Source: an uncultured Geobacteraceae bacterium
Lineage (GTDB): Bacteria; Desulfobacterota; Desulfuromonadia; Geobacterales; Pseudopelobacteraceae
NCBI GenBank assembly: GCA_903845365.1
Contig: CAIMXI010000482.1
Location: forward strand, 1-40,811
DNA: 40,811 nt
Direction of reading: 5' to 3'
This document shows positions 3,762 through 38,722 of this stretch, in pieces. Within the stretch, counting starts at the first letter, position 1, and each line of letters starts with the position of its first letter. Both the position numbers and the translations under genes were made by a program. The notes below the pieces were generated by a model that did no database searches, was not told the DNA's origin, and saw only the letters and a program-made list of their open reading frames with translations.

Positions 3762-5354
3762 ATGAACATCACCCTTACCGTCATAGAAGGCCCGCAAAAA
3801 GGGAAAAAGTTTGAGTTCCGCGAGCCGGATAACTTTCTGCTGGGGCGTGACAAAGCTGGCAGCAACGCTCACTTCCGATTGGACAACAACGACACCCAAG
3901 TTTCCCGCAATCATTTCCTCCTCGAAATAAATCCCCCCGACTGTTTCATACGCGATGCAGGTAGTCTGAACGGCACCTTTATTGTGCGACCTGTTGACAA
4001 ACGGGTCTATTTCATGGCTGGGCGTAACGATAATAAAAACGAATATGAGTCAAGCGGTGCAAAGTTGAAGGACAAGTTGGGTTTTGCTTCTCTGCAGCGC
4101 GCTGATGAGCGGCTCAAGCTAGCTGACCAGGACATTATTCATGTCGGTCAAACGGCCATCTTGGTGGAGATACTTGCTCAGGTTCGCCCACAGGCAGCAC
4201 AACAGGCCGCTGACTCTGACAGTCACTGCATCGAATGCGGTGCATCCATGCTCAATCCCGCTAGCGTGAAGCGAGCAGACATGCTCTGTGTGGATGACTT
4301 CATCTGCAATGCCTGTAAAGCAAAGCATGAGCAGGCTCGTCGTCCGGTTCGTGGCGTAAATTGCTGCGACTGTGGTTGCGATGTCACCAGTCAAGCCGAT
4401 TCTGATGGCAAGGCTGATGAATTGAAATTGATTGCGCTCTACCTGTGCCCGTCATGCGCTAAAAAACGTATCAGTGGGCAACTGCCGGTGGAGCGGATCA
4501 AAGAGTATCGCCTACTGACCCAACTGGGTGAAGGCGGTTTCGGCATGGTGTTTCTGGCCTGGCACGCCACAACCAATCGGGCCGTTGCCCTGAAGATAAC
4601 CAAGGAGGTTATCAAGGATGATCCTGCCTTGGTAAAACGTTTCAAGCGCGAGATCGCCGTTATGCAGCGACTGAAACATCCCAACCTGGTCAGACTGCTG
4701 GATGAGGGGATTGCTGATTCGGGCAACTACTTCTTTATATCTGAATATCTTCCAGCCGGAAGCCTCACGGACTACACTTGGCATTACTTTAACGGTATCC
4801 TGCCGGTTGCCAAGGCCTGTCAGATTTACGCTCAAGCTCTTGAAGGGCTGGCATTCCTTCATAGCAAGGGATACATTCACCGTGACATTAAGCCGGAGAA
4901 CATAATCCTCACCAAAGACAGCAGCGGCAAGCGGATTGCGAAACTGGGTGATTTCGGTCTGGCCAAGAACTACCTGGTTCATGGCGGTACGCTGACAGGC
5001 GCCAATGAATGGATCGGCACTATTTTCTATTGCCCGCCGGAGCAGATACTTGACTTCAAACACTCGTCTCCAGCCTCGGATGTGTATGCCATGGGGATTG
5101 CCTTTTACAACTCCGTTACCGGGCAATTCCCGTATGACTTCCCAAGTCGTGAGGAGTGCGCCCGCATGGTCCGGCGCGGCGAACGCCCCCGTGATCCGAT
5201 CTCATTTATTCTGGGGGATGATAAGCCGATTTCGATAGAAAAGCGGTTGCCGGGGATAGATGGTAAGGTGGCAAAGGCGGTGAATGGGGCGATTGTGAAG
5301 GATGTGAAAAAGAGAATCGGGATTGCGGAGTTTGTCAGGGCGTTGGCGGGATAG
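3762..5354 (+). CDS. FHA - zinc cluster - Ser/Thr protein kinase
   Basis: This 530-residue protein has three parts. Residues 1-130 are an FHA phosphothreonine-binding domain, with Gly28-Arg29, Ser48-x2-His51 and Asn70-Gly71 in place. Residues 156-232 hold cysteine pairs (C156/C159, C182/C185, C201/C204, C229/C232) that look like two zinc-binding knuckles. Residues 249-520 are a Hanks-type kinase with GEGGFG loop, His373-Arg374-Asp375 and Asp397-Phe-Gly, so it appears active. There is no membrane segment, unlike PASTA kinases. I prefer ATG 3762 over TTG 3759 because GAGGG at 3752-3756 is well spaced for it. A decayed copy of its 3' end lies at 6539-6649. Confidence 0.88.
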   Translation: MNITLTVIEGPQKGKKFEFREPDNFLLGRDKAGSNAHFRLDNNDTQVSRNHFLLEINPPDCFIRDAGSLNGTFIVRPVDKRVYFMAGRNDNKNEYESSGAKLKDKLGFASLQRADERLKLADQDIIHVGQTAILVEILAQVRPQAAQQAADSDSHCIECGASMLNPASVKRADMLCVDDFICNACKAKHEQARRPVRGVNCCDCGCDVTSQADSDGKADELKLIALYLCPSCAKKRISGQLPVERIKEYRLLTQLGEGGFGMVFLAWHATTNRAVALKITKEVIKDDPALVKRFKREIAVMQRLKHPNLVRLLDEGIADSGNYFFISEYLPAGSLTDYTWHYFNGILPVAKACQIYAQALEGLAFLHSKGYIHRDIKPENIILTKDSSGKRIAKLGDFGLAKNYLVHGGTLTGANEWIGTIFYCPPEQILDFKHSSPASDVYAMGIAFYNSVTGQFPYDFPSREECARMVRRGERPRDPISFILGDDKPISIEKRLPGIDGKVAKAVNGAIVKDVKKRIGIAEFVRALAG

Positions 5355-6439: not shown

Positions 6440-6530
6440 AAATTCCCTAACCTCTTTTGCCCAGAGGGGTGTCTTTGAAAATGGGGGGAATTTAAAGCAT
6501 CCCCCTTGATAAAGGCGGATTGAGGGGGAT
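6440..6530. repeat. Two small G/C-tract palindromic repeats, intergenic
   Basis: Unit one pairs AAATTCCC (6440-6447) with GGGAATTT (6486-6493) and contains a GCCCAGAGGGGT core. Unit two pairs ATCCCCC (6499-6505) with GGGGGAT (6524-6530). The core and flanks resemble the repeats at 16449-16510 and 16843-16890, so all belong to one short palindromic family. They lie directly before the decayed kinase fragment at 6539. Confidence 0.65.
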
Positions 6531-6538
6531 TTGCTTTT

Positions 6539-6649
6539 AAGCCGATTCCGATGAGGAGCGGTTGCCGGCGATTGATGGGAAGGTGCACGGGCGATGGATG
6601 GGGCGGTCGTGAAAGATGTGGGGAAGAGAATCGGAATTGCGGGGTTTGT
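6539..6649 (+). pseudogene. Decayed copy of the 3' end of the FHA-kinase gene
   Basis: This stretch aligns with 5223-5335, the end of the FHA-kinase gene. Shared runs include GCGGTTGCCGG, ATGGGGCG and AAGAGAATCGG. At least two single-base indels break the frame, and by eye identity is roughly 80 percent. Only the kinase C-terminal coding end remains. The open frame that runs from 6594 into the next kinase is a by-product of this remnant, not a real N-terminus. Confidence 0.85.
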
Positions 6650-15953: not shown

Positions 15954-16078
15954 CGACTGATCAACAGACATTGATTAGCAAAGCGGAAGAAAACATTGGT
16001 GCTGCTGGACGACCAACAAAAGCTCGTGTCTTTCTTCAGGCTGTGTCTGAGTTTTTGTTTCAGCTAAAGCAGGCATGA
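15950..16078 (+). pseudogene. Truncated HEPN-like ORF, 42 residues
   Basis: ATG 15950 overlaps the stop of the MNT gene, as a HEPN partner would. The first 20 residues (MTTDQQTLISKAEENIGAAG) resemble HEPN N-termini. Then the sequence changes to an unrelated tail ending QLKQA, and TGA 16076-16078 overlaps the ATG of the PP2C gene. A full HEPN protein is about 120-140 residues and carries an Arg-x4-6-His motif, which is absent here. The best reading is a deletion that fused a HEPN start to the end of another gene. Confidence 0.6.
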
Positions 16079-16851
16079 CCTCCGCTCACGCCACCCATCC
16101 CGGCCTCGTCCGCCAGAACAACGAAGATTCCCTCCGCACTGACGACAACCAGGGAATATACCTGCTGGCCGACGGCATTGGCGGTCACAATGCCGGTGAG
16201 ATAGCCAGTGCCCTTGCGGTTGAGACCGTTTACACCGCATTAAGCTCGTGTATTGCAAACTGCTCTTCCGATGACCTGTTTGACCTCATGGCACATGCCC
16301 TGCGCACCGCTCATGCTGAAATAGCAGCCAAGGCTCGATCAAGCCTGTCTTTTATGGGAATGGGAACGACGCTGGTTGTTGCAGTGGTGCGGGAGAATAT
16401 GGTGTATATTGCTCATACCGGGGATAGTCGGGCTTACCATTACAGCCAACCCCATCCCCTCCCTAACCCTCCCTTTATGCCCCAGAGGGTACTTGAAAGG
16501 GAGGGAACTCTGTTGCGGCGAATCACCAACGATCACACCATGGGAGATCAACTACTGGCAAACGGAGTTCCCAGAGAACAAATACAAGAGAAACAGTTTC
16601 ATAATCTCACCCAGGCGATTGGTTGCGGAGCGCCACCTCTCCCGGATTTCAGCACTGTTGAATTTGACCGGGGCGATCTGCTCCTCCTCTGTTCAGACGG
16701 TCTGACTGATATGCTTGCAGATAGCGAGATTGAAGCAATTCTTACAAATGGAGATGCTGACCTTGATACACTGGCCGGAAATTTAGTTGCCGCAGCCAAT
16801 GCAAATGGCGGGCGGGATAATGTGTCGGTGGTGCTGGTAAAATCCCCCTAA
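16075..16851 (+). CDS. PP2C-family Ser/Thr protein phosphatase
   Basis: This 258-residue PPM phosphatase would reverse Ser/Thr phosphorylation, with two Mg/Mn ions. Motifs in order are GLVRQNNEDS, LLADGIGGHNAGEIAS, GMGTTLVVAVV, AHTGDSRAY, LLLCSDGLTDML and GGRDNVSVV, all intact. Residues about 125-147, rich in Pro, are an insertion encoded by a palindromic repeat (16449-16510). The final residues and stop also lie in a related repeat at 16843-16890. ATG 16075 overlaps the truncated HEPN-like ORF. It is the natural counterpart of the three kinases upstream and lies 80 nt before the Clp ATPase. Confidence 0.92.
   Translation: MTSAHATHPGLVRQNNEDSLRTDDNQGIYLLADGIGGHNAGEIASALAVETVYTALSSCIANCSSDDLFDLMAHALRTAHAEIAAKARSSLSFMGMGTTLVVAVVRENMVYIAHTGDSRAYHYSQPHPLPNPPFMPQRVLEREGTLLRRITNDHTMGDQLLANGVPREQIQEKQFHNLTQAIGCGAPPLPDFSTVEFDRGDLLLLCSDGLTDMLADSEIEAILTNGDADLDTLAGNLVAAANANGGRDNVSVVLVKSP
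16449..16510. repeat. Palindromic repeat inserted in frame in the PP2C gene
   Basis: CCCTCCCTTT (16467-16476) pairs exactly with AAAGGGAGGG (16496-16505) across a loop that carries GCCCCAGAGGGT. The same core is found at 6459-6470 and 16864-16874 outside genes. The repeat encodes about 22 residues between the GDSRAY strand and the RRITNDHT strand of PP2C, a surface hairpin in other members, so the enzyme may tolerate it. Confidence 0.75.
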
Positions 16852-16890
16852 ATCCCCTTTAGGCCCCAGAGGGTCCTTTCTGAAGGGGGA
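16843..16890. repeat. Palindromic repeat at the end of the PP2C gene
   Basis: TCCCCCT (16843-16849) pairs with AGGGGGA (16884-16890) around a GGCCCCAGAGGGT core. It supplies the last PP2C codons and its TAA stop. As RNA it could also end transcription, since CTTTTT follows at 16891-16896, but the long loop makes that uncertain. Confidence 0.6.
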
Positions 16891-38573: not shown

Positions 38574-38722
38574 CTAGGAGTCTGTCGGACTTACAAGTAT
38601 CGTAATTATAGGTAGTTACTACTGCGAATTTTGCAATTTTACGGGTTTTTAGCTAAAAATCACCTAAAACCACAAATTTAACTGTTAAATATCAGGTATT
38701 TATAAGTCCGACAGACTCCTAG
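38574..38722. mobile_element. MITE-like element with perfect 20-bp terminal inverted repeats
   Basis: CTAGGAGTCTGTCGGACTTA (38574-38593) is an exact reverse complement of 38703-38722. The 149-bp unit has no ORF. CTAG at both ends may be a 4-bp target duplication, which would make the element itself 141 bp. This is the shape of a miniature inverted-repeat element moved by a transposase elsewhere. It lies 12 nt after the DUF1566 stop. The IS family cannot be named without a search. Confidence 0.85.

Follow-up and report, generated by a model that had tools for sequence, protein, structure and literature searches.

The PP2C gene and the repeats of the window

The window analysed here, a stretch of 40,811 nt from an uncultured Geobacteraceae bacterium, contains a gene for a PP2C-type protein phosphatase and three palindromic repeats, one of them inside that gene. 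The features needed for the argument are the following, with all positions counted in the window:

16075-16851, + strand: gene for a PP2C-type protein phosphatase of 258 aa, the host gene (PF13672, E 3.1e-15; PF00481, E 6.8e-13)
16449-16511, + strand: host palindrome F9 (CCCCATCCCCnCCCTAACCCTCC..TTGAArGGGAGGGAACT) with a nested core, in frame; F9 with the core recurs in two more genes
16467-16476, + strand: left 10-bp arm CCCTCCCTTT, whose last three bases are part of the 18-nt insert
16474-16491, + strand: nested 18-nt insert TTTATGCCCCAGAGGGTA, T-A subtype, residues 134-139 (FMPQRV); insert-free siblings have 2 nt in place of 20
16496-16505, + strand: right 10-bp arm AAAGGGAGGG, read from the sequence
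16840-16890, + strand: second host palindrome, of the type AAATCCCCCTAAATCCCC..GGGGGACTTT, with the core; read from the sequence and matched by repeats of other genomes
16858-16875, + strand: nested 18-nt insert of the G-C subtype, TTTAGGCCCCAGAGGGTC; an insert-free sibling is identical at 28 of 28 arm bases and has a 2-nt gap
6440-6493, + strand: decayed palindrome of the second type with the degenerate core GCCCAGAGGGG (local alignment score against that type 21.5, a value reached in 0 of 2000 shuffles)

A sequence-only reading of the window had claimed that a palindromic repeat lies in frame in the phosphatase gene, and the repeat is real: the open reading frame crosses F9 without a stop codon and the 10-bp arms are perfect, arms of that length arising in 1 of 500 codon shuffles of the loop. 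Its supposed position between two PP2C strands agrees with an AlphaFold (AF2) model built on a 19-row alignment (mean pLDDT 88.2), in which residues 124-146 form a poorly defined loop between strands 119-123 and 147-149, the mean pLDDT of block 131-140 being 50. The catalytic motifs are intact, as had been stated, with D33, G34, G116, D117, D208, G209, D248 and N249 invariant in the same alignment. The repeat is also dispersed, in line with the same reading. F9 with the core lies in frame in a YyaL gene of the window's own genome, which we call G000 (G000:C222; other G numbers are relatives' genomes), and in a P-type ATPase gene (G023:C36), and F9 without the core is found in YyaL of G030 and at three places in G000 (at most 3 mismatches). 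What had been described as a single unit is, however, a composite of two parts, a host palindrome and, nested in it, an 18-nt insert that has its own distribution.

Likewise, the three repeats of the window are not one repeat, contrary to what had been proposed. The core is indeed common to the PP2C repeat and the repeat at 16840-16890, the 20-mer CTTTAKGCCCCAGAGGGTMC occurring exactly in both (16473-16492 and 16857-16876) and, at up to 3 mismatches, in none of 100 dinucleotide shuffles of the window, but the arms differ. The repeat at 16840-16890 is another host palindrome, and that at 6440-6493, which has no GCCCCAGAGGGT and no exact core, is decayed kin of this second type. The last codons of PP2C and its TAA stop (16840-16851) come from the left arm of this second palindrome. 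An Rfam scan of the window gave no match.

Several other features of the window were recorded. The 3' part of an FHA-kinase gene (5242-5335) is repeated at 6557-6649 with 82-90% identity, just upstream of and into a TPR-kinase gene and adjoining the decayed palindrome. A CAP12/Pycsar-type TIR-domain protein (PF10137, 13269-14018) is encoded beside a WD40 protein kinase, within a cluster of Ser/Thr kinases and the PP2C. Two longer inverted repeats, at 1546-1689 and 38574-38722, with arms of 32 nt (94% complementary) and 26 nt (92%), respectively, are unlike the core-bearing palindromes.

Ends, subtypes and distribution of the 18-nt insert

The insert was characterised on 130 copies with at most 3 mismatches, of which genomes supplied 123 and viral contigs 7 (11 of 133 genome matches lie outside this set). 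Where a core copy has 20 bases, its insert-free siblings have 2, in nearly all cases CC, from which the unit reads, on this sequence comparison, as C^TTTAKGCCCCAGAGGGTM^C, i.e., 18 nt between two C's in C-rich arms. When up to 2 mismatches were allowed over 28 arm bases, the 2-nt gap was the best in 52 of the 55 copies with a unique best gap, and at up to 3 mismatches in 66 of 73; the other 3 of the 55 gave gaps of 1 or 3 nt, which we count against the reading as a mobile insert. Siblings with at most 4 mismatches were found for 100/130 copies, compared with 2/130 random positions and 3/130 random CC positions. Among hand-picked arm pairs the 2-nt gap was the best sibling in 10 of 14, which was also counted against; the remaining four gave a gap of 0, a gap of 5 (wrongly cut arms), the copy itself only, and none.

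On the strand as written, the core hairpin has a 5-bp stem and the loop CAGA (KGCCC-CAGA-GGGTM). K and M covary, with the pairs G-C in 80, T-A in 42, T-G in 4, A-C in 2, T-C in 2 and G-A in 0 of the 130 copies, thus 122/130 are G-C or T-A, and just this one pair varies much. Because two 20-mers make up 97 of the 130 copies, the covariation may go back to two old subtypes and not to numerous compensatory changes. A test for a stem around single copies was weak: 49/130 exceeded the random 95% mark, and swapped flanks scored almost as well as the copies' own (means 3.88 and 4.54, against 2.89 at random). This statistic was counted against the mobile reading, and no conclusion was built on it. Sites of this kind also hold a rarer core form with the loop TTT (TTTAGGCCCTTTGGGTA, 17 nt), seen on the minus strand of L050 from about 1442, and one further TTT-loop variant has G-C ends.

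The core was found in 21 of the 39 genomes of the genus, with 133 matches, and 18/39 gave no match; the window's genome (5.5 Mb, 511 contigs) holds 8 at up to 2 mismatches. The same pattern read backwards matched once in all 39. In a phylum sample, 2 of 395 genomes had the core at up to 1 mismatch, namely the window's own and one other, whose only match has a mixed T/C pair and resembles a chance occurrence, and no core was seen there in one other genome of the genus or four of the family. Six viral contigs carry the core as well, and its presence there and in 21 genomes led us to reject an assembly artefact. One viral contig (L109 and L110) has several cores. Two of them (L109, 6772 and 6833) face each other in a single palindrome pair where a Mu-type portal ORF ends, and another lies in a GH108 ORF. 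Alignment of the 130 copies revealed unrelated host palindromes around the 20-mer, for instance GGCCACCTTCTC|TCAGGGAGAAGG, CCCCTCCCCGCTCC|TTATCAGGGGAGAG, CACCCACCCCTCAATCC|TCCCGTCAAGGGAGGGG, GCCGTTATCC|TTCATCCCTGTT and GGGTCGC|CTGCGA-like repeats.

The core measures 18 nt, exactly six codons, and therefore its copies can lie in frame in unrelated proteins; five of its six frames are stop-free and the sixth contains TAA. In 44/130 copies, at least one frame stays open for 40 codons in both directions. A Pfam scan covered the window's PP2C and 20 long ORFs out of 30 distinct ones (32 rows), and matches extended across the core or flanked it on both sides at 15 loci (16 copies). The bracketed genes encode PP2C, HypF (three genomes, one scanned), a P-type ATPase, UvrA, CobB/CbiA-like proteins (two genomes), a molybdopterin oxidoreductase, an AMP-binding enzyme, a nitrogenase-type protein (two matched stretches, one position shown), a polyketide synthase with two cores, a MacB-type transporter, a phage GH108 protein and a methyltransferase, the last being a 2-mismatch copy and the least sure. 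Others have a match on one side only, among them YyaL and the Mu-type phage portal, which contains two cores. The coding copies use all five stop-free frames, in both orientations and in unrelated proteins, which argues for tolerance and not for a selected peptide.

Orthologous sites and the history of the PP2C loop

Flank-to-flank BLAST of the fetched loci returned mostly self matches and pointed to HypF, of which 30 loci were fetched and one partial locus was dropped. Among the 29 remaining, 18 are empty at the site, 7 have the palindrome only and 4 have the core (one degenerate). The sequences CCCCCC-TTTCTCAAAGG of G059 and CCCCC-TTTAGGCCCCAGAGGGTC-CTTTCTCAAAGG of G034 are exactly 18 nt apart, and the protein changes from PPAPLSQRGGY to PPAP-FRPQRV-LSQRGGY. 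The G059 HypF site (L229) also contains four near-identical hairpin-derived units in tandem and in frame (LSQAGGYNH-like). YyaL (DUF255), the gene that bears F9 with the core in the window's genome, has a match in 38/39 genus genomes, and in the 30 loci read the same states recur: G023 is empty, G030 has the palindrome alone (LPHPHPNPPLEREG), and G000 has palindrome and insert (LPHPHPNTL-FMPQRV-LEGEG). These three genomes are joined in the HypF tree (99/97).

In UvrA, where 28 of 30 loci were readable, the segment between two fixed motifs measures 57-60 residues in 16/28 genomes and 63-85 in 12/28. G030 has a CCCTCACCCGGCCGTTGGCCACCCTCTCC palindrome without the core, and the closely related palindrome of G027 contains the core in reverse orientation. 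By eye, palindromes of several families lie in the linker of 11/28 readable genomes (G030, G027 and nine others), and G018 has a longer segment with no clear palindrome. The linker (L252-L281) shows different in-frame palindromes per species, including GTAGGGGC..GCCCCTAC types. This linker is a recurrent insertion site in a DNA-repair gene, and its palindromes in 11 of 28 genomes suggest that protein loops in this genus regularly arise from inserted palindromes.

The history of the PP2C loop is less simple than the gain of about 23 residues that had been claimed. Orthologs were found in 8/39 genus genomes including its own (E<=1e-40), and the loop interval already measures 17-32 residues in nine close orthologs versus 31 here. 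The alignment of the G017 loop with the repeat spans 49 positions and has a single 9-nt gap; 0 of 2000 codon shuffles reached its score, and by its sequence the loop is a clear relic of the PP2C repeat. The G036 loop is probably a relic too (0/2000 against the window copy, 4/2000 against the C222 copy). L048 gave 2/2000 against the C222 copy and 78/2000 against the window copy, and no clear relic of the window copy was detected in G005 (98 of 2000 shuffles), G006 (284), G001 (182), G012 (509) or G035 (126). Other palindromes occupy the loop in G012 (15 of 500 codon shuffles had one as long) and G035 (0/500). In the PP2C tree, the window's row was not resolved against G012, G035 and L048. Since relics exist in relatives, the insertion is not private to the window's genome, and the relics together with the other palindromes mean that insertion into the loop either happened repeatedly or predates the separation of these lineages. 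The same residues in orthologs of distant relatives had been named as the sign of an ancient loop, and this was seen in part, with a clear relic in G017, a probable one in G036 and none that is clear in the others.

Origin of the insert and comparison with known systems

We consider it probable that a REP/REPIN-like palindrome sits in frame in a tolerant PP2C loop and carries a nested 18-nt insert that is itself a dispersed element. The 18-nt unit would be a mobile element of very small size, of which a hairpin copy (KGCCC-CAGA-GGGTM) in ssDNA or RNA is made and then placed at C^C by an enzyme acting in trans; genic copies would persist where loops or linkers tolerate them, the hexapeptide itself not being selected. 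We put forward only tentatively that it is an 18-bp transposable unit with its own machinery, using the C^C of palindrome arms, frame-neutral and stop-free in five of six frames, which peppers the proteins of the genus with hexapeptides (F[MR]PQRV); we know of no smaller transposable unit.

Two candidate mobilisers were considered. Core counts showed no correlation with Y1 transposases (rho -0.04), which gave no match in 2 of the 21 core-bearing genomes, and 30 fetched Y1 loci contained no core at up to 4 mismatches, therefore a Y1/RAYT transposase was rejected, although a Y1 match outside these loci lies 1.3 kb from a core copy (G000:C142). Reverse transcriptase was rejected in the same way (rho 0.05); PF00078 matches occur in 28/39 genomes, and 6 of the 21 core-bearing genomes gave none. 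That neither family tracks the core weighs against the mobile reading.

In the main rival explanation there is no transposition, and template switching or gene conversion carries the 18 nt from one palindrome to another: a replication strand that stalls in a C-run hairpin would copy the core from a different repeat and return. The hosts share C-runs and G-runs, the insertion point always lies in or beside such runs, and the Y1 and reverse transcriptase counts disclosed no enzyme, all of which this explanation accommodates. Yet both ends are exact in 52 of the 55 decidable copies despite differing right-hand host sequences, the exact right ends are not easily explained by it, and the GTAG-type and ATCC-type hosts have little in common with the others, so we regard it as unlikely. 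Insertion sequences that target REPs exist, and the fixed ends and fixed target of the unit would also suit a scar or minimal remnant of a larger hairpin-targeting element with a fixed footprint; no larger split-core version was present among arm-to-arm gaps of up to 60 nt in the fetched DNA, and we find this origin improbable.

Still less credible is a core that serves as a conserved binding site or RNA signal, which selection would maintain in hairpin loops and which would spread along with the palindromes. The near identity of the core across genomes, where the arms vary, is what such a signal predicts, but 18 of the 39 genus genomes are devoid of a core match, coding copies occur in five frames and both orientations, and many palindromes are without it. 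An ancient protein loop with no DNA insertion would account for the length of the close orthologs, all long there (17-32 residues), and for FMPLE in G017 and LERDGKFKRL in G005 at the same place; it is contradicted by the dispersed DNA copies, given that unrelated genes contain this very repeat and more than 100 other places hold the 18 nt, and the loop is not conserved among orthologs, G012 and G035 carrying other palindromes. We therefore give it almost no weight.

If the 18-nt unit does move on its own, it would be close to the smallest size that mobile DNA can have, and orthologous sites that differ in the presence of the core would open its mechanism to testing. Its length and open frames give it entry into genes, here those for HypF (hydrogenase maturation), UvrA (DNA repair) and a signalling phosphatase, and it would thereby also record where proteins tolerate insertions. 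The more novel unit at this locus is the possible 18-bp mobile element and not the palindrome.

By description, the 18-bp unit comes closest to the small dispersed repeats (SDR) of cyanobacteria. Elhai et al. 2008 (Genome Res 18:1484) reportedly described SDR of 21-27 nt with hairpins backed by compensatory changes, embedded in other repeats and minitransposons, and are said to have proposed an RNA intermediate. Like SDR, which are also described as about 20 bp and possibly mobile in a passage of PMC2884548, the core is 18 nt long, has many dispersed copies (133 matches in 21/39 genomes) and is inserted precisely into other repeats, with empty siblings and orthologous series. Unlike them, it combines 18 nt with a C^C target in C-rich palindrome arms in a Geobacter-like genus, and it has a frame-neutral length and in-frame copies in proteins. 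The terminal inverted repeats of MITEs are given as 15-30 bp (passage in PMC3733652), whereas the whole unit here is 18 nt and at most one duplicated target base (C) fits.

The host palindromes resemble REP/REPIN sequences, which are portrayed in parts of PMC3733652 and PMC3116915 as hairpins of 20-40 bp, often in inverted pairs and sometimes in genes including DNA-repair genes; GTAG..CTAC palindromes lie in the UvrA linker. The 18-nt core differs from a REP in that it sits within REP-like repeats of many families, and from the REP/RAYT system in that its counts do not track Y1 and the 30 fetched Y1 loci contain no core. Multicopy sequences of Geobacter metallireducens, both intergenic and within genes, include the palindrome GRCGTAGCGCTGCTACGCC (passages of PMC2700814), which resembles the host of core copy L190; the main-text passages of that paper on multicopy sequences do not mention the core. 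Among open-licence papers, the full texts that matched the 12-nt core on either strand include none whose title concerns bacterial repeats, and those that matched nested tiny mobile repeats include none with this subject in the title.

Rickettsia palindromic elements (RPE) are dispersed palindromes in frame in unrelated genes (passages of PMC10969869 and PMC3733652), about 150 bp long and grouped in ten families (PMC10969869, in the part concerned). The palindrome here is about 60 bp instead of about 150 bp, belongs to another phylum, has many intergenic copies and holds a nested separate element. F9 is nevertheless in frame in PP2C, YyaL and the P-type ATPase, as are other palindromes in further genes, and the empty, palindrome-only and core-bearing states of HypF, UvrA and YyaL thus uphold the likeness first drawn from the sequence, the in-frame palindrome working like an RPE.
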